From Polytrichum commune (taxonomy: Eukaryota; Streptophyta; Polytrichopsida; Polytrichales; Polytrichaceae): a stretch of 64,000 nt of DNA. Positions 5,345 to 58,640 of this stretch are shown in pieces. Position 1 is the first letter of the stretch, and each line of letters opens with the position of its first letter. The translations under genes and the position numbers were made by a program. Location: NCBI GenBank assembly GCA_950295325.1, contig OX485803.1, forward strand, positions 47,075,554-47,139,553, in the 5' to 3' direction. The notes beneath the pieces are model-generated. The model was not told the DNA's origin and searched no databases. It saw only the letters and a list, made by a program, of their open reading frames with translations.

Positions 5345-6065
5345 CATAATATATAAATAAATAAAATAAAATAAAAGCAACGTCTGGGTTTCTTTTACCC
5401 TGACGTGAATGGGAGCCCGTTCCTCTTTACCGTGATCATGTTTGACAATGCGTCACCATAAGGGGTACTTCCTCCCTCTCAAGAGGTGGGCTCCTTTAGT
5501 TTACTCACTGGTTCAGTCCCTAGCCTCTAGGGGGGGTCAACGGGGGGTTGTTTGTTGTCTAGTTTTCTTTTATTTAATATCAAGTATGTGAGATATTTAA
5601 TGGAAATTTGGTGTATTTGTTTCATAAGTGTTTTGATTTCTCTTTTGGGTATTTTAAGGTATTCTAGTTCTTTGATTGGTTGTTCATGGATAGCCCCTCT
5701 CACTCTGGTTGTGATTGTTATGAGAGGGTTGACTTGCTATCCAACCGTTCTAAGTGTTTGGATGAGTGGGTTGTATTTCTCGGTTTTTTCCTTGTGTGCG
5801 GTATTTGGGAATCTGTCATGACAGTATGTGAATTCAATGAAATGTATGACGTTTGGTGGGGTTGGCGTTAGGGGAGGTTGGCTTTCGGGGGGAGGGGCAC
5901 CTAATACGCATAATATGTATGGTCTGAGCCTGGCTAGGCATGTGCATGGTGTGGTAGGGCATGAGCATTGGAGTAGCCATGTTGGCACTGTGTTGTCTTG
6001 TGGTCTGAGGTTTTGGTTACCTGCATTTATGAGGGTGTAGTATCTTGTATGTCGGCTTGATTGAT
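5345..6065 (-). mobile_element. 3' fragment of a Dualen-like LINE (restriction-like endonuclease tail plus 3' UTR)
   Basis: Read on the minus strand, 6065-5530 encodes the C-terminal tail also found twice at 48.6-51.7 kb. The landmarks are C-S-C-P followed by C-T-C, then RLRPYILC at about 5920, HFIEFTYCHDRF at about 5840, EKYNPLIQTL, VNPLITIT-RVRGAIHE and a Lys-rich end near 5555. A TAG stop (about 5744) interrupts the frame after LIQTLRTVG. The usual PD of the restriction-like endonuclease motif reads PY here, but the downstream Glu of FIEFTY is kept. The 3' UTR carries a 24-base block at 5471-5494 that recurs at 50985-51008 with one change, and ends in TTTTA/TTTA repeats near 5345-5375. The fragment is 5'-truncated, as is common for LINEs. 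Confidence 0.75.
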
Positions 6066-6906
6066 ATGTATTCCCTTACATGTAGGGAGCTAAGGCATAA
6101 GGAGTTAGACATTATTTAAGATGTCATTCAAAATAAGATTATGAAGATTTCTTGAGACATATCACAACATAGATGTTATGAGGCTCCATCAAAAGGTCAC
6201 ATCCCGACAAGTCGAAGTACAAAGGAGACTGTGTTCCACCTCTTCATGATATTAGAAGGAAAAACATTGGAAATTGATAACAATCAAAAAACCAAATATT
6301 TTTAATGCAATTTTTGATTAAAATAGGTTGAGATTAGGTCAACTATTGAAGGAAATGTTTCCACAAACATAACAATTTTTTTCACAATGTACCTTGAGGC
6401 CATGAATAAATATAAACCTAACTAATTTTCACTTTTGTTAAAAAAATCTTACTTACATATTTTCTGTCATAATTCAAATTTGAAGAACGTACTTCTACAA
6501 ATGTACTAAATATGTGCTAAATGGGATTGGACAAAGTTTCTCGCTACCATAAACTTTTGAAATTCTAAGGATATGAAGACACCATATTTGTGCATTGATT
6601 CGACTTGGGGGGGGGGGGGGGGTTAAAGGTCTTATTGTGACTCGGAATAACTTAGTGGTCACTTGGAAGGTTAGGTCCCAAATGGGCATTATTTCTTGAT
6701 TTCCCCTGGGGTTGCACTGGCTACCCCATTGTGGTTGTATTTTCATTCCTTTTCTTGCAATTGAAGTTTAAAAAAAATTCAACTATATATACTCTTATTT
6801 ATTATTATTTGTTTTTTTTTGGGGGGGGTATGTTCATACCCTTCTTAGTTCAAGCACATACCCTTCTTAGTTCATAGTTATATTAGTTTAACTCCTCCCA
6901 CAAACC

Positions 6907-6988: not shown

Positions 6989-9227
6989 TGTTATCTGTGT
7001 ATTATCCTTGACAAAACTTCAAGCTAAATTGAGTTAAGTACATTGTTTATGTTATTTACTGTCACTTGCTATTTCAAGTTACAAGGTGCTATAGCGTTTT
7101 AATACTTATGTAATATTTTACCAAATAAATTATTCCACTACGCAGCATGAGTACCCTTGAATGCAAATAAAAATGTTGTATTTGATCGTTAGTGTTTAGT
7201 ATGAGTATATTTTGATTTTCTCTTTGACACAAGACAATTTATATGATAAGGCTTCAAACAACAACAACAACCAATGCTTTATGAACTTGGTGAAGCCCGT
7301 ATAAAAAGTGTGTATGGCCATATATTGAGACCCCATGTACTTAAAGGGTCATGGTGGGTAGTACGGTTGAACAACACACTAATTAAATCAAGAAGGAAGA
7401 ATGGGAGCACAACAAAGGTACCTACGTAGCCAATTCCATTGTCCGAGTTCCCCCGCACCTAGAATTGGAGTGCATTCACATTGATGCTTCAAGAGTAATC
7501 TTGGAACTCTATGGGTGTGTGTGTGTCTCAATCCACAAGTTTTGTCAACTTGTCCTTATAAACCCGGAATACCGTATGGGAGCTTTATGTGGTGACTCTT
7601 TCTAAATTGGGAACCGATGAATGGGTGGTGTATGGCAAATGGTCACGTCAAAAAATGAACACCAAAAGGAAAAAAAAAAAACATGTGTTATGATAAGATT
7701 GGACTACACATTTATAGTATAAATAACATGTTCTATGCTTATTATTTAACACATTTGACAAGGGCCTTTCTATGATCTTATAGAGGACAAAGACAAATTT
7801 CATTTGATTTCATAATATCTTTGATTAAAGATCATAACCAAAAACTTCCAATTGTCAATCACGATCTAGGGGGGTGGACTCTTTATTGGAAACCTAAATG
7901 TTGTGCGTGGGTCACTATGAAAATAAACCCTCTATATACAAGAAGTTTATAGAAACAATGAATGTATGTGTACTAATGGCATGCTAGTAAATGGACTCGT
8001 GTGTTTATACTAAGTTTTTCAGTTTAATGTGTTGAATGCCTTCACTACATATTCAGATTTAAAATTATGAATTAAATAGGCATTTATTACGTATAAAACC
8101 CACTTTCACTTTCCAATGAGAAAGTCGTAGAACATTTTGTCATCCATAGCATCTAACTCAACAATCACATCAAAAAAGAAAGACACAATAACTTAGCCAC
8201 AATCCAAATAGAAAACACATGGTCATAATGAAGCCCATGAGCGCTCTAAGAGCCTCCAATTTCTAAAACCTCAAACCCGCATGTGAATCTTAAGAGTAAT
8301 GGACAAGATAGTCACTAAGGACTGTTATCATCTAACAACAATGGATGAAACGAACACATCTACTGTTAATTTGTTTCTTTGAACCATAGGGCCCCCTTCT
8401 ATACATATACCTTTACTTCAGAATTCTCAATACCCTTTTGAAATGTACACACTAGCGAAAGATAATACCTCTCCCTTATGTACAATATGTACGTTAATGT
8501 CTTAAATTACCCCCCCCCCCCCGGGGATCAAAATGACTTATTTATATTCTCGCTACAAGTTGCAATCAACAAGTTGGAGCAGCTGATTGTCATGGACAAG
8601 TTTAGTAATGTGAGACCGTTAAGCAAAGTTTGGTTGCCCACTACCACTAGAAGAGTGCAATTAACCATTGGGCATTTTTGACAATTCCCATCCCCATCCA
8701 ATGGCCAAATTAATTGCCGAATTGGAAGTACCCACAAAAGGACCATGTTTATCTACATCATCAATGTTGTATGCCACTCTCACCTGCAACTTATCGCTAT
8801 TGACTCACCTTATCCCATGGGCATTTTGCTTTTGGAACTTGACCATAATAAACTCGAAAGAGTTGGTGTAGTAAGGACCTCACTTTGTACTTACCGAAGG
8901 AAGTGTGGATTCCTTGGTTGTAAGGACATTAATAAATAGCATGCATTTTTCAACATGAAACCATGTGAAATGTTGGAGGCACTCAACATCTCAATTTTGG
9001 GAGGGCCTCGAAACATCATTGAATCAATAGGCTATATTAAGAAGTGTTGAACATTAAAAATACCAAAAATAACATGGAAATGACTTTAAGACAAGATACG
9101 GTAAAATGGTATTCATGAAATGTGTGGATGTCATGTCATACTTGTTTCAACCTTATGGTTATTAAAGAATACACACTTCTACATTCTTTGAATATTCCTC
9201 AAATATGAAGTGAAGGCTACAAGCTTA
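6987..9227. other. AT-rich spacer
   Basis: No gene, RNA or complete element recognised over about 2.2 kb. It includes a short dispersed repeat at 7281-7348, a 13-base C run at 8510-8522 and a brief TG tract near 7515. The small open frames show no domain signature. Confidence 0.5.
7281..7348. repeat. Dispersed repeat C, copy 1
   Basis: This block starts ATGAACTTGG and includes ATGGCCATATATTGAGACC. It matches 18084-18151 in the same orientation at roughly three bases in four. Function unknown. Confidence 0.55.
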
Positions 9228-9563
9228 GGCCACTTCACACAAGAGCCGAGGGTTATGATATTGTAATTGTGAGTGTCAGTGGTTCTCATCCAAAGGTCTT
9301 ACCATTGAAATTATTTGTGGAATTTGTGTTAGGCCTATCTCTTGGAGGTCAGATGGACGCAAATACTTGCAAACCACGAAACATTATTTATAATTTTCCA
9401 TGTAAGAATTCATGTAGACTTTTCATCGTTGATAATTTCTTTGGGCTCTTTGGCCTTCAACTTCTAGTGTAAAGTGAACTTGGGCGTTCTTGACCTTTTT
9501 GACCAATGAGAGATCACACAATGCAATGGTCACAGACATTGAGTCTTGTGTGTGAAGTGGCCC
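9228..9563. mobile_element. PIF/Harbinger-like non-autonomous element (short variant)
   Basis: The left end GGCCACTTCACACAAGAG and right end CTTGTGTGTGAAGTGGCCC form terminal inverted repeats matching the 500-bp family at 12147 and 29257. The left flank is TTA and the right flank TCA, close to the 3-bp TWA duplication of PIF/Harbinger. At 336 bp it is shorter than its relatives and keeps the subterminal GTCACAGACATTGAG-like segment. It has no transposase frame, so it depends on a partner elsewhere. Confidence 0.75.
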
Positions 9564-48240: not shown

Positions 48241-48600
48241 ATTGCTGATACACTTCAAAAATATGATGTAACTAACTTTGACAAGACATCAAAAAGAAAA
48301 GAAAAGGAAAAAATTACACTAATAACTTGTACTACCATGAATGTGAGTTGGTTAACTCTATATTGGTCGTCAGTTGCCATTACATCAAGAAGAAGAAGAA
48401 GAAGAAGAAGTCCGGTCTCCGGAGGAGGCCGGAGTGAATAAAGTCTTTGTTTGTAGAATATCCTAGGCCATGCCTCACGGCAGTGGCATTAGATGTAAAA
48501 CTACTTCGCCCTTTGCATGACGTAGACACTATATTTAGTAACCAATAGTAAATTTTGGTAGCCGGTTATTATGTATGAGCCTTGTTTGGGGTAATGAAGG
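48241..48600. other. Spacer with AGA microsatellite
   Basis: Contains (AGA)n at about 48388-48410, then spacer leading to an 18-base G run (48599-48616). No gene recognised. Confidence 0.5.
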
Positions 48601-48639
48601 GGGGGGGGGGGGGGGGATTTGTGTTGGGTTGGGAGTTTT

Positions 48640-48999
48640 ATTTATTTATGAAGGGTCTTGAAGATCATGGATAGTTTGTCGATTTTCTAGCCTTCGTTTG
48701 TGGACTAATATGGAATGTGCATATTGTGTTGCAATTATGTTAATTTGTCTCAAAGTGTTTTTGATTTTTGTGATAGGAAGTGTGAGTGTTGTTTCCAGTT
48801 TTTTCATTGATGGGATATGTGTTGTGCCTCTTGCTTCCGCAACTAGTACCATGAGTGGGGCTACGTTCCAACCCTTTGTTATGATGTTGTTTATGAGTGG
48901 TTGATTTTTATGATTTTTCTATCTAGGGTTTCAGTGGCGAACCTATCATTGCAGTATGTGAATTTGATAAACTGTATGGTGATATCAGGTGTAGGGGTT
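48640..48999 (-). pseudogene. C-terminal extension of the shorter LINE copy
   Basis: Minus-strand reading gives IQFIKFTYCNDRF (about 48940-48975), then after frame changes EARGTTHIPSMKKLE, TKIKNTLRQINIIA, YAHSILVHKRRLENRQ (to about 48690). The fragment at 5.5-5.7 kb gives RVRGAIHEQPIKELE, REIKTLMKQIHQIS and LILNKRKLDNKQ at the same places, so this basic tail is a real, conserved part of the ORF2 product. It follows the nuclease motif and may complete its PD-(D/E)xK fold or bind DNA. Confidence 0.7.
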
Positions 49000-49800
49000 T
49001 CAAGGGGGGGGGGGGTGGTTATGTGGATGGCCTCTGATGCATAGTATGTCCGGTTTGAGCCTAGCGTTGCAATGACATCTTTGGGTATCACATGTACATG
49101 GAAGTAGCCATGGGGGGACTGTATTTTCTTGGGGTAGTTCATTATGCGTTCCTGCATTCATCAATGTATAATGTCTTGATATTTGAGTTGATAGAATGAG
49201 TTTGCGTATTTCCCATACCGCTTTGTTATGCCTTTTTGTTATGAGTGCATGGATGTGTTGTTGTTGGCATTTAAGTAGTACATGTAGCCATGTGTCCGCA
49301 TCTGTTGAGTTGCAGATAGGACATGTTCTCGATGGGAAGGCTTCTCTGCCAAAGAAGAGTTGTTTTTGGACGTGGCCCATATATTGTCCAGTTCGAAATT
49401 TTATTAAGCATATTTTTTGTTTATTTGTGATGGTAGGATTCGTCCAAAAGTCATTTGATAATATTTTATCTATGTCGTCGTTTTCTAGCCATTTATGTAA
49501 TTGGTGTGTTTGATTTGCTATGATTGTTAGGTTATGTCCATTGTCATGTTTGAGAATGTGTTGACTAAGGTGCCTAATGGGGCCCTTGTCAGGTATTTCT
49601 TGCATGGAATGCCACCAATCTTTTTGTAGGTGGTATGGTGTAGGATGTGCATGCTTGTATGGGACTGTGGCATCTCTATGGACTAATTCACGTCCTTGTT
49701 TGGCTAGTGTATCTGCTTGGTCATTTCCTCCTATGTTTGTGTGGGCTTTTATTTTGTGGAGTGTGGTGGTTTGTGTGCGGGATATTAACATTTTAATCAT
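49000..49800 (-). pseudogene. RNase H C-terminus, CCHC knuckle and restriction-like endonuclease of the shorter LINE copy (266-codon open frame)
   Basis: This is the longest open frame in the window. It starts inside RNase H, continues through KAHTNIGGNDQADTLAKQG, then a zinc knuckle CPICNSTDADTWLHVLLKC (C-x2-C-x9-H-x4-C) and KRHNKAVWEI. It ends after CTCDTQRCHCNARLKPDILC (KPD at about 49045-49056) and a Pro run. CCHC, then an RHN motif, then (K/R)PD and a downstream acidic residue in a hydrophobic strand is the layout of the restriction-like endonuclease of R2-type elements. The next frame continues IQFIKFTYCNDRF, where the acidic residue seen in the other copies (FIEF) is Lys. Upstream, the normal start is lost through decay, so the annotated Met is internal. 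Confidence 0.8.
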
Positions 49801-50356
49801 GCTTTCTAGGATTATTTTATCCGGGTGACTGTTATGACTAGTGGGGTGTTTGATTTGGGTGTTTAGGAGGTATAGGATGTTTAGACAATCTGTGAATATG
49901 TGGGCTGGCTCATTTCGGTATGTTGTGGTGAGGAGTTGTAAAGTGGTGTATGGCCATCATTTCTGCTCGTAAAATATTTTGTAGTCCCGGTAATCTTTTT
50001 GCAATTTTTAGGTTCTTGAAAGGGTTGTAAATACCATATCCAATTTTTTCACGTCTTCATTGTCCATTGTTTGTTTGTTTGGGTGGTTTGAATGACCCGT
50101 CCGTGTAGTAGCAAAATTGGGGTGGGTATTTAAGGGGTAGGCATTGTTCAGGGTTGATATTCCATGGGTTGGTTGGAATTTGGATGGTCGGCCGCGGGGG
50201 GGCGGGGGGGCGGGGGGGGGTATGTGAGTTTGGTCCATTTTGTATTGCGGTTCATTAAGGTGTCTAGTGGCATTGGTGGTGCAATTTGGCTAAACATTTC
50301 GGGGATTCGTAGTGTGTTAGCAATATCTGTCATTTGTTGAGTATATGTCATTGTTC
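49690..50356 (-). pseudogene. Pro-rich linker and RNase H domain of the shorter LINE copy
   Basis: After a Pro-rich linker (LTYPPPPPRPPAADHP, about 50170-50225, caused by C runs), the RNase H core is visible in pieces. CYYTDGSFKPP near 50085-50112 is the first catalytic Asp strand. A TGA stop follows within about 12 residues, then GYGIYNP, a frameshift, and RLPGLQNILRAEMMAIHHF (catalytic Glu). Another frameshift leads to AHIFTDCLNILYLLNTQI (second Asp) and finally KAHTNIGGNDQADTLAKQG at about 49690-49750 (His and last Asp). All four acidic positions and the His are kept. The enzyme would degrade the RNA strand of the RNA:DNA hybrid during reverse transcription. One stop and two frameshifts inactivate it. 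Confidence 0.85.
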
Positions 50357-50866
50357 CTATGGGTAATTTTTATGGTGTATGCATAATATGTGTAAAGCGC
50401 GATTTTTTGTTCTAGGTTCAGTCCTTAGTTCTGGGGGAATTGTTGGTTCTTCGTAGATGATGGTATCGGCTTTGAAGTGGGCTATAACATGTGAATATGG
50501 GAAGGGTTCATTGTGGGGATTAGAATTGTGATACCAATTTTCGTCTGGCATTACTAGTAATGTGATAGAGTTGGAGTCGTTTTTGGTTGCTAGGCGGGCC
50601 CAGTGGAGGGCTTGTTGAGATTCGGTGTTTGTGTGTGGGTGGGCATATCCATTGCCATGCCATTTATGATGGAATGCTTTTCCAACTGATCCAAATACTA
50701 CATCTCTAGGAAATGGGGAGTGGAATTGTCTTAGTGTGGTGGGGCATGTTACTGGCGATGAGAAATATGAGTGTGTTATTTGGAATGTGTTTATGAAGTT
50801 TTCAATGATGGCATTTGGGAGTGTGTATTGCGAAAGTTTAAGGGGGTCATTTTTGGAGTTTTCTAT
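50357..50866 (-). pseudogene. PCIF1-like methyltransferase domain in a LINE (169 open codons)
   Basis: This frame is open from a TAA at 50867-50869 to a TAG at 50357. There is no Met near the beginning, so it is an internal part of a longer polyprotein. In order I read LPNAIIENFINTF, ITHSYFSSPVTC, FPRDVVFGSVGKAF (50672-50710), GYAHPH (50633-50650), QALHWARLA, SITLLVMPDENWY, HVIAHFKADTI and YEEPTIPPEL. PCIF1-family adenine methyltransferases show a comparable order: a (F)ASPxN element, FGS-x-G, a G-x-x-x-NPP(F/Y) catalytic loop, a helix rich in A and H, then a strand with VV-P-W. At the NPPF position this copy has AHPH, so the catalytic Asn is absent. The family methylates the cap-adjacent adenosine of RNA polymerase II transcripts. 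A role in capping or disguising element RNA would be inference. It lies directly upstream of the RNase H region. The fold assignment is by eye. Confidence 0.5.
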
Positions 50867-50989
50867 TTATATATTTGGTATAACCATGCCACTTCTGTTT
50901 CGAATGGTTGGGTGGGGGCCTCTAGGTTGTGTGGTCTATTTAGTGCTAAGTGGTATTGGCCATTACACCATAAAAGGTATTATACCTCC

Positions 50990-51700
50990 CTTTCAAGAGG
51001 TGGGCTCCAGTAAGTAATAAAGTATGGGTTGGGTGTCATGGGGGCGAGTGGTGCTTGCTTGTCGTCTAGTTTCTTTAATTGAGGAGTAGATAGGTGAGAT
51101 CTTTGATGGAGTTTTGGTTTATGTTTTTCATGAGGTTTTTGATTATGGGTTTCAGGATTTTTAGTTTGGTGAATCTCTATACATGGTGTTTGTGTATGAC
51201 CCTCTTACCCCAGCCATGATGGTGATGATGTTGTTTATTTTCCATCCGTTATTTTGGAGCTTATTAATTAGTGGGTCATATTAAGTGTGTTTTTGTTTGA
51301 GCATTTGTTCCGGGAACCTGTCATAGCAATATGTGAGTTCTATGAATTGTAGGGTATTGGACTTTGGTTTGGGGCTTCTTATTTACATAGAATGTATGGT
51401 CTCAATTTTGTGAGGCACTGGCATGGTGGTTGTGTGCAGGTGTGCTTAAGCGACCATTATGGGATTGGCGAGTCAAGGGGCATGAGTCCTACGGTGGTCA
51501 ATGTGAAGAATCGAGCAAATTTGTTAGATTATATTGATTGGGTGATAAGGTGCATTGCTTTATTGTGGCGGCCTATTCAAATCCTTTCATATGTTGATTC
51601 TCACATGTAAATAGGAGGTGGGGCCATGTGTCTCGGGCATTCTAGAAGCAAAGTGTGCAGTTGAGATTAGGGTGTGTGTTGGGCCAAAAAACATTTTCCT
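50990..51700 (-). pseudogene. CCHC knuckle and restriction-like endonuclease tail of the long LINE copy
   Basis: CTLC (51648-51661 region), a stop, then NARDTWPHLLFTCENQH gives C-x2-C-x9-H-x4-C, the same spacing as the shorter copy. Further on come CTQPPCQCLTKLRPYILC (51386-51430), a stop, and LQFIELTYC (Glu at 51339-51341). The PD is PY, as in the fragment at 5.9 kb, while the Glu is kept. The sequence then runs through a Lys-rich tail into the 3' UTR with the 24-base block at 50985-51008. Confidence 0.72.
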
Positions 51701-51949
51701 TATGGTTGCCCATGTATTGTACATATCTTAATTTTAGAGCTTAGGTTCCTTGGGTCTTTCATAAATGATTGGATAGGTTCTTTGATAACCCTTTGTCAAC
51801 ATATGGAAATTTGTTTTTGGCCATCTTAATTTCTTGTTTCTGGTATTCTTTGTTGATGAATGTGTGGAGGTTGCAAGTGGCTTCATCATGTGTGGCGGTT
51901 GGGCAACTTGCTAATCAATAGGGAGTGGTGTGTTTAGTGTGTATGGGTT

Positions 51950-52419
51950 GTGTAGTGCTGGCTTTGTCTTTGTGGACACCTTCATTTGCTATTATGTATG
52001 CTATTTTGTTGCTAGTGATGCGTCTGTGGGCTCCGACTTTGTGGATGAAAATTTTGTGTGGGGTCAAGTATATTTGGTGAACGATTGGTGCTATGAGTAG
52101 TCTGTCAGGTTGGTGTTGTTATGAGGATGGGTGTTCTATGTTGTTTTTGTTAATCAAGAACATGCTATTGAGGTTGTCTATGAATATAGTGTGTGTCTAT
52201 GTGGGTGGTTTGTATGGTTTTTATGGATGTCAATATAGCATGTAATTATGCTTGGAGGATATTTTGGTGGCCATGTAGTCTTTTTGATATTTGTGTGTTA
52301 TTATTAGGGTTGTATATTTTGGACATTGCAATGTTGCCTTCCACTTCACCTTTTGAGTTCTTGGTTGGTGGGATGCAAGAACTATCCATACATGCATTGA
52401 TGCAGGTGGAAATTGAGGG
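51950..52419 (-). pseudogene. RNase H domain of the long LINE copy
   Basis: Minus-strand pieces align to the RNase H of the shorter copy: MDSSCIPPTKNSKG (52380-52400, corresponding to TDGS), SKIYNPNNNTQISKRL, HQNILQA with a stop where the Glu would be followed by LHAIL, and HKVGAHRRITSNKIAYIIAN (51985-52050, corresponding to KAHTNIGGNDQADTLAKQ). The last Asp is Tyr and the Glu position is disrupted, so it is inactive. Confidence 0.7.
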
Positions 52420-54199
52420 GGTGATTATGGTTGTATTAGGTTAGTAAGGGTGTCATAGGGGTGGTTTCAGGAGGGGGTCCTACTTTTGGTGTGGACTTCG
52501 ATGTAGTCGAGAATTTGATGTTATATTGTGCAAGGATAGGTTGGATTGGGTAGGTCTCCACATGCATATCATATAGTCTTTTTGTGATATGTTCGAGTTC
52601 TTGTGGGGTTTTCACATGTCCTATGTGGATTTGAGCAGGTTGGTATGCATACTATGGATGTGATAGAGGATTCTATAAATTGGTAATATTTTGGCCATTT
52701 TGGTGTTGTGGTGGGACAATTGCTATCATGTGGGTGTCGGCGTGTCAGTTGAGTGAGAGTTTGTTGGGTTGTCGGTTCCCAACCTCAAAACCACCATCCT
52801 AATAGTCAGCTACATTTTATGGCCCAATGGATAGCTTTGAGAGTGTTGTTGTGGTCGGTGGGTTATGCTAGGCCTACCCCGTTCTATTTAAGGGATTTGG
52901 CACTCCATGTAGAGCAGAAGAGGATGTCTTGGCTATGGGTTGAGTTGTGGTGTGTGAATTGCATGGGGCATGTTAAAGGAAATAATTAGTGGGAGTGAGT
53001 GGTTTTGAATGAGTCTTTTAGAAGGTTGATGATTTTCAGGTGCAAAGTGTGATGTTGGTTGATGGATTCGATATTTTTTGGCTTCTTAAATTTTAGGAAG
53101 TATGGTTACGTATCTTCGTATGAGCCAAAGTATTTATGGGGCGAAGTCTTCAGGTGGGGGTTGGAGGAAGATTGTAAGGTTTGGTAGTTTGTTTTTGGAG
53201 AAGTTGTTCCATATCCAATTTATTTTGTCGGTGGTGATGGTGGACATGTAGCTCCCTTTTGGTCATATATGTGAGATTCTAGACCTTGGATTTGTATAGT
53301 GGGCTTGTATGTGTGGATATCCTTATCTAGGTTGCATTCTTCCGTGGATAGTGCGAGGTTGGTCATTTGTAGGGGTGGGCATATGTCCCTGGTGTCTTTG
53401 GTTGTGGTTTAGGAAGCTTGTGTATGTATGGAGTGTTTTTTGTTTGCGGGTTATCGTATGGTATTGTGTTAGGAGCAGTAGGTGGTGATCCAACAATATG
53501 TTACATGGGTTGAAGAGTTTGATTTGCAACATTTTCCATTAATTGATATAGTGTCTTCTAATGGGTTGTGCCCCCCCCCCCACCCCCCCAATTTCTCTTT
53601 CCTAGTGGCGGTTTAGGTATTTATTATGGCATATGAATTTTGTGCCTAGGGTGGTGTGGGATGTTATGGTTAGAGTGTTGGAGTTGTTTGGTGGCATGGG
53701 GACTGGGGGTATTGGGTGTGGAGAGTGGAGAGTGGGAAAGTATGTGTGCTTCTCGGAGGGTGTTTTTGATAATTATGGGTGTATGTATGTATTTGATTCG
53801 GAATTCTTCCACTGTGAGGATGCCCACAGTGTTATTGTGATGTGTTGGGGACAATGTGGCGATGCCATACATGTATAGCTTGTTAAGTCAATGATGATTT
53901 TTGGCCTTTGTTTATGTTATGGGATTTGTGTATGTTGGGTTGGATCGCCATTCTTGTTCTAGGGGGTTTTTTTTATGGGGAATGAGTGGTCCATAGTGAT
54001 GGTGTGGATTTCATATTCTCTTTCTAGTAAGAAGAGTGTCCCGGCTATGGGTGACCTAGTACATGCTTGGTGTTTGAGTTTGGGGAGATGGAGTGACCTC
54101 CGTATTTGGCGCATATTTACTTGGTGAGGCCTTGGAAGATAATGCCCAATCATCTTTGGTCGTTAAGAGCTTGTAGTAGTTCTTGGGCTATGTGGTTTA
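52420..54199 (-). pseudogene. LINE linker between reverse transcriptase and RNase H
   Basis: Fragmentary minus-strand frames (53959-54153, 53624-53872, 53323-53532) continue the LINE without a domain I can name. They include ESTA-type thumb remnants, NHNQRHQGHMPTPTNDQPRT and HMIAIVPPQHQNGQNITNL at about 52690-52740. I do not see the methyltransferase-like domain of the shorter copy here, so the two copies may be different subfamilies or this part is too decayed. A C-run interruption lies at 53571-53590. Confidence 0.5.
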
Positions 54200-55402
54200 T
54201 GTAGGCAGGGACGAGGGAGGTTGCATTTATGTTGAAGTCTTGACTAGAGAGGTGGGTGAGTATGTTTGTTGTACTTTTGCATGTGTTGTAGATTTCTTTA
54301 CTTAGTTTGTTGAGTATTTTATCTAATTTTTGGATGTCCGGTTTTGAGAAATGGATGATGCAGATGTTGTATGCTATGCTAGCTTTGAAGAAATTGTATT
54401 TAGGATTTTAAATCATTTGTTTGAGTCTAGTTGGTGACATGTTTAGTTGTGTATTATGTTTTTTGGCTTTGTCGGTGGTAAATTGTTTTTGTAGTTTCCA
54501 TTCTAGTGATTGTATGAGATGGATCTAGGTATGTGTATCATTTGTTTTAGGTGAGGGTGGGGAATATTTTGGATTTTTAGGTGACTATTTTGTGACTAGA
54601 TGTAGGCTCTAAAGGCATTTGGTTTAAATTTGGACTTGTTTGGTCAACATGTAATGACACATTTTGAGAGGTTGAGGTCCACATGTGACCATTTTGGGAG
54701 CTTTTGTATTTGTGGTTGGATGGCTTGGATGTCATCAGTTTTCATTATGCGATCATCAATGTAGACTGTGGTGGTGCAGATGACAAAGGATATGGTGAAG
54801 TTGTAACCTAAATTATCTTTTCCCTGCCACCTGAGGAATGGTTCCATAAATACGATGAATAAGTATGTGCTAAGGATGCCACCTTACATGGTTTCATGAT
54901 TTATGTGGATTAGGGATATTGTTTCAAAGTGGTTGGCATAGAAGGAGGTGGTGGAATCAATGTAAATATTACCAACTAGTTCAATTGTGGTTTGTGGAAG
55001 CCGAGGTCAGTGAATCCAAACGCATTTTGGAAATTGATGTAGGTTAGGTACATGTCTTAATTTGTGAGACTTGCGTCCTCAATGGTTGCTATAATCATTT
55101 GGATTTATATTGTAGCATTACGTTGTGGTGTAAATCCTTCTTGGCTAAAGTGTAGGGGTTTGTGTTTTTCTTTGTAGTTTGTTCGGAGGGTTGTTAGGGT
55201 ATTGGTGTATAGATTGTATATTGTCTTGGCCAATGCAATTATACATGTCTATAGTTTGTGAGGAGCAAGGCGCCTTTTTTTGGGGGGGGGGGGGGAGAAT
55301 GGTATATTGTGTCTCCAATAGGTCGGGATTTTATTTTTATTTTTATAGCATTGTTGGAAGAAAAAAAGAAAAAGAAAAAGAAAAACATGTTTTGGTAGGA
55401 GG
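54200..55402 (-). pseudogene. LINE reverse transcriptase, catalytic part
   Basis: Continuing past the hAT site on the minus strand: LPPSYQNM, a phenylalanine run from a CTTTTT repeat, and QQCYKNKN. Later come LHFSQEGFTPQRNATI (55117-55160), IQMIIATIEDASLTN, then TYINFQNAFG (motif A, about 55015-55044), GGILSTYLFIVFMEPFLRW (motif B, about 54830-54875), VYIDD (motif C, 54752-54766) and WSHVDLNLSKCVIT. The palm aspartate of motif A is Asn (codon at 55033-55035) and the motif B GDTLSP-like core is altered. Motif C keeps both Asp. With several stops besides, this polymerase is dead. It would have made element cDNA at the nicked target site in the nucleus. Confidence 0.9.
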
Positions 55403-55410
55403 GCGGTAAT

Positions 55411-56851
55411 CAATGTGTATGTTTGACAAATTTCATGTGACGTTCAACCTCAAATCCAAAGTGTCACATGACGTTTTCAAAAACAAAATGAATGTCAATT
55501 GACATCTACATTTTATTCCAAAATGTCACCTCAATTTTTGGCTTACACAATATTTTAGAAAACTAATATTTTGAATAATAAAAAACAAACTTGATTTGTT
55601 ACCAAAAAAAAAAAACTATCAATCGAGCGTAAGTATCCTTCGGTCTCGCATGTTTCTCCACTTATGCAATGTGATTAGAGAGAAATGCACGACATACAGA
55701 AAAGAAGTCAAGAGCCTTGAATTTAGGCATCTTTCTCCACTTTTTGCTTCTGAATCTGCAGCCAGACTCTGCTATCTCTCCGCCAAAAGCAACGGACAAA
55801 AACTCTCAAAGGTGATCAACATGGGTGACTCTCTTGCACTTTAGTACGGAGGCTCTGAGGCTCACAATTACGTATGCTCCTCCCTTTGCTTGATTCTAGT
55901 TGAATGTATCTATTTATCTATCTACCTATCTGCTGAACAATCAATATCAACCGATATCCTTTTGAAGCATATTATATCCTTTAGTGGTAAAGAAAAAGAA
56001 TAAAAAGTTGTTCAATTGGTGAGGTCTGATCTAGGTCTCTGAACTGGAATTGTGAAATATAGAAACACTTCTAGTGCGCTGGCCAACAAAAGGTTGTTAC
56101 AAGAAGGAATATTGATTATCGTTGGGAATTAATTGGTTCCAGGTGTTTCCAGAGAGGCAGGGGAAGTGGAAAGCAACCACACAATCACAACTTCATAATT
56201 ACAAGTTAATTATCCCAACAGAACAATTCACTCTGGAACAAAGTGCGCGACAATCAATCCTAACCGAAAGCAGGTGATGATCTTCGTGCCACTTCTGCGT
56301 CATTTTTGCAGTAAGAAGCCTCTCCTGCTCCAAGAAAGCTCAAAGGGATTCAAATGCTTTCAACAAGGGAGCTTTGCGATTCAAAGGGAATTGCTCAAAA
56401 CAACTTTGGTTGAAAGCAAGAAAAACTCACATTGGTTGGAAGCAAGAAAAAACTCATATGGAGTGGAGGATGTGCAAGCACCACGGTGATACAAACATTT
56501 GCCTCGCCATGTTCCTAGTTAGTCTCGCTCTCCGATCACCATCTAAGCTCCCGGTTACAAAGGAAATTGCAAGAGCAAAGTTGAACTAAGTATGTTAGTG
56601 AGTGTAGGAAGTTCTCCTACTGTTATGGGTTATGTTTTCCGGATACTTGAGCTGCACTTTATAGTACTCAAGTAATACGTGTCATTTCAATTTCTAGTGT
56701 GTCAATTGACGTGTGGTTTTTTTCTTCACAAGTCACAGTACATGTCAATTTCTAGATTGTGCGTGTCAATTGACGTGCATTTTTTTTTTGTGCAAGTTTT
56801 TGCGTGTCAAAAGAGAAAAACTTGCAAAAACTTTGTCAAACATATACACTG
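55411..56851. mobile_element. Non-autonomous hAT element (1,441 bp) inside the LINE
   Basis: The ends are CAATGTGTATGTTTGACAAA (left) and, as complement of the right, CAGTGTATATGTTTGACAAA, matching the hAT pattern C-A-R-N-G. An exact 8-bp GCGGTAAT flanks it (55403-55410 and 56852-56859), the hAT duplication size. The palindrome GTCAATTGAC occurs three times near the ends (55494, 56701, 56765), like subterminal transposase-binding motifs. The interior has frames of 82 (55596-55844) and 71 codons (56274-56489) with no transposase signature, perhaps captured sequence. It must have been moved by a transposase encoded elsewhere, after the LINE was in place. Confidence 0.92.
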
Positions 56852-56859
56852 GCGGTAAT

Positions 56860-57434
56860 GCTTAATTAATTTCTTTAGGGATGTTGCTAATCCCTTGAGC
56901 TTTGCCTGAGGCTACCCTTTTGAGGCAATTGTCATAAACTTCTCGGGAGAAGTGGTTGAGTGTGTGGTGGGGGGGGTGCCTAAAATGATTCATTTGGAAG
57001 TGTGCCATGGGTATTTGCATACCACACACATGCATGTGTTGGGGTGGTCTAATGTATCATCACAAAGGGGTGTTTGTCATTGGAACAGGAGTTTGTTGGG
57101 AGCATTTGCTATGTCTGTAGGTTGGTTTGGATGTTGATTTGTGGGTCTTGGAGACATGCAAGGGGGTTGGTGTTCGTTGGTTGAGATTTTTCTTGTGAAT
57201 TCTTTTGGTTTCATGTCTAGTAGGATTTCCATATTTGGTAATGACAACCCTACCATTGATGGTTATTTGTTTTGAGGTTTGCTAGCTCTTCTATTCATTG
57301 GGCGTATCAATGGGAGTGGGGGGGGGGGCGGGGGGGGGGGGTTTGCATACGGTTATATTGATTTTAGGGCTACTAGGTAAGGGTGGTTGGATGCATGGGG
57401 GTGGTTGTATGTGGCTCAACTTGCCTTGCGGATG
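56860..57434 (-). pseudogene. LINE reverse transcriptase, N-terminal (finger) part
   Basis: Mostly decayed sequence with G/C runs at 57321-57340 and 57521-57537. At the end nearest the hAT insertion it reads HFSREVYDNCLKRVASGKA-QG and NIPKEI (about 56866-56955), the finger motif that precedes reverse-transcriptase motif 1 in LINEs. A TAA follows PKEIN. The sequence then enters the hAT target site and resumes as ALPPSYQNM on the other side. Confidence 0.75.
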
Positions 57435-58640
57435 CTATGGTGGATTCTTACTTGATTTTTTCATAATTTCTCTTGCTTTATGGGGAGAAAACCACCTTGG
57501 TTTTTGGCTCGGGTGGTTAGTGGGGGGGGGGGGGGGGTTGGCCATGCATGTTTGTTTGATGCATTTGGTGAGGGAGTGTATAATTTCTTGGAATTGTTCT
57601 TGTGCATTTTCTTTTTGTTGGGGGTGAGTTGCTTGTGGTGTACTATGTTTGTAAGGTTGTCTATTTCTAGCTTGTTTTCTTCTAAGAACATTGTTTGGAG
57701 TTTTTGGAGGTTGGTTGGGGGATATGATATGGGGGTTGTTGGTAGGTGATGACTTCCATTTGGTGATTATGTTGTTGGGGTGGAATTGTATGTAAACTGG
57801 GAAGTGGTCAGAGTTTTGGTTGTCATTGATTAGTGTGTTATTTTTAAAGGTGTTATGATTATGGAGATTGGTGTAGAAGCCATTTGTATGGCTTGTTGAG
57901 GCGTAGTTGTGGCCTCCTTGTCGTGAGAAGCTTTGATGGTGTTTTGTGGTATGGAGTCCTAAGTTGAGTGTGTGTGTTGGGCCCATTCGTGGTCGGTTTG
58001 ATTTTGGGAAGTTGTTATCCCATTGGACATTCGTCATTTGTGGAGTGCATCTCTGTTTAAGTCCCTGGCTAGGATGATGTCATGTTGTGGGTTGTGATCT
58101 ATTAGAACTTGGTTTTGGTCTTGGATTTTCATTTACAAGATTTATGTCACATGGGTGAGTAGGCATGCATATATGTGGGATGAGTATGGGTTTTATGGGT
58201 TTGTTGATCTTGAGTGCTTGTAGGTAGGGCAAGACTACGGCTGGAGTTGGGAGTTTGGTGATATTGTCACTGATGGACATGTGTATCATTGCTAGGATGT
58301 TTACCGGGGTGCATGTTGAGAATTGATTGTGGCGATATGGCTTAGTGATGTTGGAGTTGTTGTGTATGATTTTATAGTATGGAAATCTTCGGACTATGTA
58401 GATCGTAGACTTGTTTTTGTGGAGTTTAGTTTCTTGTATGAGTGTTGTTTGTGGGTCATTGTGTTGTGCTTGTAGGAAAACTTTAATCCCAAGAAGATTA
58501 GAGCTAATATGGCATGTGTTCCAAGTGCATGTGCTTAGGGTTGTGGTGTTGTGGTTGTCTGTTGTTGTAGGTGGGATGTTTGTGGTGTGGTTGGGGTGTG
58601 TTAGGTGGTTATGCCTTGAGTTGTATCCTTTGATGTTGTG
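57435..58640 (-). pseudogene. APE-type endonuclease domain of the LINE
   Basis: In order on the minus strand: STCTWNTCHISSNLLGIKVF (Trp-Asn at 58518-58523), TLIQETKL (QET at 58428-58436), a CMPTHPCDINL strand (about 58155), HDIILARDLNRDAL (DLN near 58049-58066), a frameshift at about 58040, and QNSDHFPVY (SDH at 57804-57812). These are the metal- and phosphate-binding motifs of exonuclease-endonuclease-phosphatase enzymes that nick the target for LINE insertion. GDxN reads RDLN, so the conserved Gly is Arg. Downstream a 200-codon open frame runs into a Pro-rich linker and KPRWFSPHKARE, a common lead-in to LINE reverse transcriptases. Confidence 0.88.

Follow-up and report, generated by a model that had tools for sequence, protein, structure and literature searches.

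Several hundred copies of a Dualen-like LINE in the Polytrichum commune genome carry in their ORF2 polyprotein, between the reverse transcriptase (RT) and RNase H, a domain that is homologous by sequence to the methyltransferase core of PCIF1 (CAPAM). This domain is present in nearly all of the copies tested, is under purifying selection, and has His-Pro-x-(N/T/S) in place of the NPPF catalytic loop. We favour, at somewhat better than even confidence, a reading in which the domain has been kept with its loop replaced and, no longer making canonical m6Am, serves as an RNA-handling module in retrotransposition.

Nested LINE copies in the window

The window, by which we mean the whole stretch of 64,000 nucleotides that was analysed, holds on its minus strand two copies (A and B) of one kind of LINE together with the 3' fragment of a third, copy C (Table 1). 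The frame at 50357-50866 is stop-free over 169 codons on the minus strand and contains SYFSSPVTC, FGSVGKAF, GYAHPH, ALHWARLA and LLVMPDENWY in the order claimed by the original prediction, and stop codons are present across the same positions on the plus strand. PF12237 is the single Pfam family reported for this frame, at residues 12-81 and with a score of 30.8 bits, which is slightly below the family cut-off of 31.1 bits. Despite the WW domain in its name (PCIF1_WW), this family is a CAPAM-like methyltransferase according to the accessible text of PMC7641849. When the frame alone was compared with the PDB, PCIF1 took the top rank at E 0.91, below significance, and a single-sequence AlphaFold model of the frame had a mean pLDDT of 30.7. 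The predicted coordinates do enclose an open PCIF1-like frame but cover only about 83% of the domain in copy B, whose start lies farther upstream in a different frame (about 50946), with a frameshift near 50839-50866. RNase H (PF00075) lies downstream.

Copy B is flanked by the 9-mer TGTAATGGC, which has no other occurrence in the window on either strand, and its insertion site is the 3' UTR of copy A, so that the two are nested and copy A is the older and more decayed. The 5' end of copy B coincides with the beginning of the PCIF1-like domain. The frame had been described as cleaner than its surroundings, and this is indeed so because copy B is a separate, younger insertion beginning at the domain start. 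A tandem block duplication was considered for copies A and B and rejected in favour of nested insertion with the 9-bp duplication. When the joined flanks of copy B were compared with the 3' UTR of copy C, there was a good match on the 5' side only (36/43) and a weak one beyond the insertion, and continuity of the flanks there therefore rests on the duplication. Copy A, which extends by matches from 58529 to about 50966, is old, with endonuclease, RT, PCIF1-like, RNase H, zinc and restriction-like parts recognisable in scattered frames.

Table 1. Positions in the window of the parts of the three LINE copies
Feature	Position	Strand	Evidence
Copy B, LINE insertion truncated at 5' end, carrying the PCIF1-like frame	48385-50958	-	flanking 9-bp duplication
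Target-site duplication, 5' side of copy B	50959-50967	-	TGTAATGGC
Target-site duplication, 3' side of copy B	48376-48384	-	TGTAATGGC
Copy B PCIF1-like domain, open frame	50360-50866	-	PF12237 2.6e-7; tblastn from L036 domain, 83% identity, 1.9e-95, 50854-50360
Copy B PCIF1-like domain, start in other frame	50839-50946	-	tblastn from L036 and L024 domains, 2.8e-10
Copy B RNase H, two frames	49657-50140	-	PF00075 9.9e-7 in second frame; tblastn from L036, 2.7e-48 and 3.6e-37
Copy B zinc-motif region past RNase H	49243-49659	-	tblastn from L036, 6.4e-87
Copy B putative restriction-like endonuclease, CxC..CxC and PD..E..K motifs	48682-49209	-	tblastn from L036, 2.9e-68; motifs by eye
Copy B 3' end, short hairpin then CTT repeats	48386-48432	-	sequence
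Copy A AP-type endonuclease remnant	57759-58529	-	tblastn from L020, 1.3e-30
Copy A reverse transcriptase remnant	54542-55356 and piece 56972-56844	-	tblastn from L020, 1.9e-30, 4.6e-17, 1.1e-4
Insertion within copy A RT, inverted repeats inside	55357-56843	-	gap separating RT pieces
Copy A PCIF1-like remnant	52821-53096	-	tblastn from L020 2.2e-14; from copy B 3.1e-9, 34% identity
Copy A RNase H remnant	51945-52386	-	tblastn from L036 7.7e-10, L024 8.3e-9
Copy A putative restriction-like endonuclease remnant	51197-51546	-	tblastn from L020, 1.9e-13
Copy C, 3' fragment: restriction-like domain and 3' UTR	5454-6068	-	blastn 65% over 552 columns, 86% over 43; tblastn 8.5e-43

Other features of the window were observed along the way. 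The insertion of about 1.5 kb within the copy A RT has arms at 55478-55515 and 56753-56790 that are 79% complementary, and long runs of C occur on the element strand in copies A and B (48599-48630, 50204-50235, 57312-57354 and 57526-57557). In copy B and 3' of the L020 ORF2 a short hairpin precedes a microsatellite-like repeat (CTT and TATC, respectively), and judged by eye this pairing is perhaps the 3' end of the LINE. An Rfam search of the window returned no match, and three further window ORFs had no Pfam match at E <= 0.01.

The LINE family and its PCIF1-like domain

The genome searched comprises 408 Mb in 64 contigs, and its copies of the LINE are numbered L019, L020 and so on. The window frame gave at least 151 matches (from 1786 first-look candidates), and PF12237 at least 150 (697 candidates), with all 150 of the matches listed scoring above 31.1 bits; the same PF12237 search of 14 control genomes gave zero matches. 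Searches with the frame, PF12237 and the vertebrate PCIF1 core together identify at least 298 distinct places, and copies of the LINE number in the hundreds. Open frames of at least 2625 aa occur at six places. L019 and L020 share 99.37% identity over 7624 bases, gap-free, and the family has therefore moved recently. L019 also has an ORF1 of at least 633 aa (7603-9501, minus strand) overlapping the start of ORF2, for which we found no significant Pfam or NCBIfam match and, by tblastn against the window, nothing at E <= 1.

L020, the one copy examined along its full length for domain order, has an ORF2 of 2625 aa that matches RVT_1 (2.6e-29), PCIF1_WW (3e-10) and RNase_H (4.6e-13), in that order. 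Its PCIF1-like domain occupies about residues 1868-2065. The PCIF1_WW score of 40.4 bits is above the cut-off, and these three were the only families reported at E <= 1, with no WW domain among them. The complete order is a 2A-like motif, AP endonuclease, RT, PCIF1-like domain, RNase H, zinc motif and a putative, motif-based restriction-like endonuclease. The AP endonuclease profile matches ExoIII in the PDB (1.3e-3) and the motifs WN, QETK, GDFN and SDH are present; the match to TIGR00633 (E 0.0048) is below the cut-off, and this region of the L020 ORF2 has no Pfam match. The restriction-like part was recognised by eye from CxC..CxC, PD, E and K motifs, its profile returning one unrelated PDB chain at E 1. 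Compared with the PDB, the RT is closer to R2 (1.1e-30) than to L1 (3.6e-16). With an AP endonuclease by profile, a restriction-like domain by motif and this RT, the LINE is probably best described as Dualen-like, and not as Dualen. The 2A-like motif, GD(I/V)E(P/L/T)NPGP (for example GDIEPNPGP), lies upstream of the AP endonuclease at about residues 277-285 of the L020 ORF2 and fits the 2A/StopGo core consensus, given as (D/G/C/N)(V/I)ExNPGP in the accessible part of a StopGo survey (PMC12846837). It was seen in 10 of 38 loci (L019, L020, L021, L022, L024, L025, L027, L029, L030 and L035), many of the 38 ending short of its position.

The original prediction placed the PCIF1-like domain within a LINE polyprotein upstream of RNase H, and this placement is upheld across the family. 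The domain lies downstream of the RT in 109 of 113 matches to the L020 RT, a set that was chosen irrespective of the domain and is a subset of 2091 candidates biased towards near kin of L020. A listed domain was found downstream in 68 and a further 27 of these matches, and for the remaining 18 a stretch of 641 bases was read where the domain was expected; of these 18, 14 have the domain, two of them (L040 and L042) showing its first third only in the stretch read, and four (L041, L051, L053 and L056) have no domain in that stretch. The PCIF1-like domain is a standing part of this LINE family.

Alignment of the family gave a much firmer match to PCIF1 than the single frame. PF12237 matches each of the 21 aligned domains (best 1.1e-13) and is the one Pfam family to do so at E <= 0.01; since this is so and the domain recurs in copy A, the likeness to PCIF1 exceeds chance. 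Searched against 177,635 distinct PDB sequences, the family profile gave two matches at E <= 10, both of them PCIF1 (6.9e-4 and 5.1e-3). Profile-profile comparison of the family with the PCIF1 pair by hhalign returned a probability of 94.6%, compared with 0.1-0.6% when six further domains of this polyprotein served as controls. The SxP and FGSxG stretches aligned to PCIF1 are kept in the family, and hhalign pairs the family Y-A-H-P-H-N with the PCIF1 E-A-N-P-P-F. Its confidence drops after about column 145, so the similarity is firm only for the first part of the core. The domain may share the PCIF1 fold. As for a source, no host PCIF1 gene was recognised in the genome, where a gene in pieces could escape; the vertebrate PCIF1 core found 91 places (best E 9e-4), and all 19 of these that fall within loci read are copies of the LINE domain.

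Loop replacement and selection on the domain

The catalytic loop of PCIF1 is reported as N553-C557, with changes of NPPF to APPA or SPPG giving inactive protein (PMC10544176, in the text available). We tallied the corresponding residues at 62 places, these being 70 loci less two duplicates and six with the loop out of reach. The first position, Asn in NPPF, is His in 62/62 and the second is Pro in 62/62. The third is variable (52 H, 3 N, 2 P, 2 Q, 2 Y and 1 D), and the fourth, Phe in NPPF, is N in 38, T in 23 and S in one; in the frameshifted L067 this final residue depends on the frame, which gives one I in the codon tally. The NPPF loop of the PCIF1/CAPAM m6Am methyltransferases is thus absent from all 62 places tallied, which have HPx(N/T/S). 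The His is encoded by CAT in 14 and CAC in 48, and all four Pro codons are used, and these synonymous changes indicate that the residues have been held while the DNA changed.

A DNA pattern for KWxGxGYAHP had 404 exact matches in the genome (216 + 188) and none in the reversed control. The equivalent pattern with Asn, KWxGxGYANP, had a single match, again with none in the control, and this lies in L071, a broken copy with shifts and stops that is outside the 62 places. The corresponding place in copy A reads stop-P-T-D. It had been noticed that the window frame has His for the NPPF Asn, and this proves to be the family state; no NPP(F/Y) was found in the younger copies searched. We considered decay as the cause of the His and rejected it on the 62/62 tally, the synonymous codon changes and the ratio of 404 His to one Asn. 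His-Pro-x-(N/T/S) is the family state of the loop.

Nei-Gojobori estimates of dN/dS for the domain fall between 0.04 and 0.22 in 13/15 pairs (two pairs being saturated), and those for the RT between 0.05 and 0.10 in 7/9 pairs. Constraint is looser in the short stretch that separates the domain from RNase H (0.12-0.79 in 10/12 pairs); these values are rough, as several dS exceed 1 and the pairs share lineages. The PCIF1-like domain is under purifying selection. Protein distances for the domain and the RT are correlated across 18 loci (r 0.963, 0/999 permutations as high), each of which has the zinc and RNase H parts as well as the RT and the domain; the loci were picked by the domain, and shared ancestry inflates r.

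Possible function and comparison with known systems

We suggest that an ancestor of the LINE may have gained a PCIF1-type methyltransferase core in ORF2, between the RT and RNase H, and that purifying selection would then have kept the core while NPPF turned into His-Pro, a variable residue and N/T/S. The domain most likely stopped making m6Am by the known mechanism in the process, and it may now hold the element's RNA by its 5' end, or hold the RNA/cDNA hybrid, during target-primed reverse transcription. An RNA-handling role is put first because the domain sits between the RT and RNase H, where RNA and the RNA/cDNA hybrid pass, and because of the substrates of PCIF1. With a loop that has neither the Asn nor the Phe, m6Am made in the known way would not be expected, by analogy with the fly homologue. 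The invariant His-Pro does count against this reading, as it could equally be an active site. So do the fading of the alignment past the first part of the core, the four RT matches in whose read stretch the domain was not seen, and the L020 ORF2 Pfam result, in which neither a WW domain nor the helical cap-binding domain of PCIF1 was recognised.

It is possible, though we consider it fairly unlikely, that the domain is an active methyltransferase with a re-tooled His-Pro-x-(N/T/S) loop, which would bind SAM and methylate the element's RNA or RNA/cDNA hybrid at another atom or base. Invariance of His and Pro beside a variable residue, strong purifying selection and retention of the SxP and FGSxG stretches all point this way. 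A loop of this kind is not known to us from any N6-adenine methyltransferase, which counts against the idea. The reported substrates of PCIF1 include DNA and RNA/DNA hybrids as well as RNA, which is favourable; on the other side, the same accessible text has it that losing the Asn and Phe kills the enzyme (PMC10544176). The original prediction, that the domain methylates the cap-adjacent adenosine of the element's transcript, has homology to PCIF1 in its favour and is not supported by the loop, in which both the Asn and Phe are replaced throughout the family; nor did Pfam find a WW domain in the L020 ORF2, and we regard this activity as improbable. That the likeness is due to chance, or to a host gene overrun by LINE copies, might be argued from the degraded copies in the window and the insignificant PDB match of the single frame. 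This is contradicted by the unbroken copies, by hundreds of copies with the domain at the same place in the same polyprotein, and by the places found through the vertebrate core, all 19 of which that fall within loci read are copies of the domain, and can hardly be credited. On balance we would place RNA handling ahead of altered methyl transfer, and both ahead of cap m6Am.

LINE proteins are assembled from a short list of enzymes, and an RNA-methyltransferase fold was not found among these in the literature within reach. Searches of that literature on PCIF1, CAPAM or Dualen and retrotransposons, which covered the titles and abstract openings listed and left subscription papers mostly outside, found no LINE with a PCIF1-like domain. 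No confirmed relative was found among IMG/VR viral contigs (by protein, domain profile or RT profile) or among GTDB genome contigs, plasmids and phages, collections that cover viruses, plasmids and prokaryotes and say little on other eukaryotes. The lack of relatives in the prokaryote, phage and plasmid collections is in line with the eukaryote-only distribution of PCIF1 given in the accessible part of an N6-adenine methyltransferase survey (PMC8868631). Should the LINE use this domain to manage its RNA, then a single small protein would suffice to test how a LINE recognises or marks RNA. A PCIF1 relative that is under selection yet lacks the NPPF loop would also join the fly gene as an example of a fold outliving its chemistry. 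Were the re-tooled loop to be active, a LINE would have made the cap methyltransferase it captured into a nucleic-acid methyltransferase of a new kind, acting on its RNA or RNA/cDNA hybrid in retrotransposition.

The LINE domain resembles PCIF1/CAPAM (PF12237) in sequence over the methyltransferase core, between the QGSLP region and the catalytic loop inclusive; it differs in having HPx(N/T/S) for NPPF and in lying inside a LINE polyprotein in which a WW domain was not found. Drosophila Pcif1 is likewise a PCIF1 relative retained though its loop departs from NPPF, with F changed to H (NPPH) and without m6Am in the available text of PMC9479742, and, in a title cited in PMC10544176, it is described as catalytically dead but as having roles in fertility and gene expression. 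The fly protein is the product of a host gene with the F to H change only, whereas the LINE domain has lost both Asn and Phe and mostly has His where the second Pro would be. Plant LINE superfamilies are given as L1 and RTE in the accessible part of a plant-element review (PMC9033089), and Dualen is reported from Chlamydomonas and its kin (PMC8226300, in part). Dualen elements are described as encoding both APE and restriction-like endonucleases (PMC4640811, in part), and with Dualen/RandI our LINE shares an AP-type endonuclease and RNase H and, judging by motifs, may share the presence of a restriction-like endonuclease in the same element. It shares with APE-type non-LTR elements that carry 2A (StopGo), known from a title cited in PMC12846837, a 2A-like motif upstream of the endonuclease. 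A PCIF1-like domain goes unmentioned in the accessible portions of the Dualen descriptions (PMC4640811, PMC8226300), and what the LINE adds to Dualen/RandI is this domain, between the RT and RNase H, together with the 2A-like motif.
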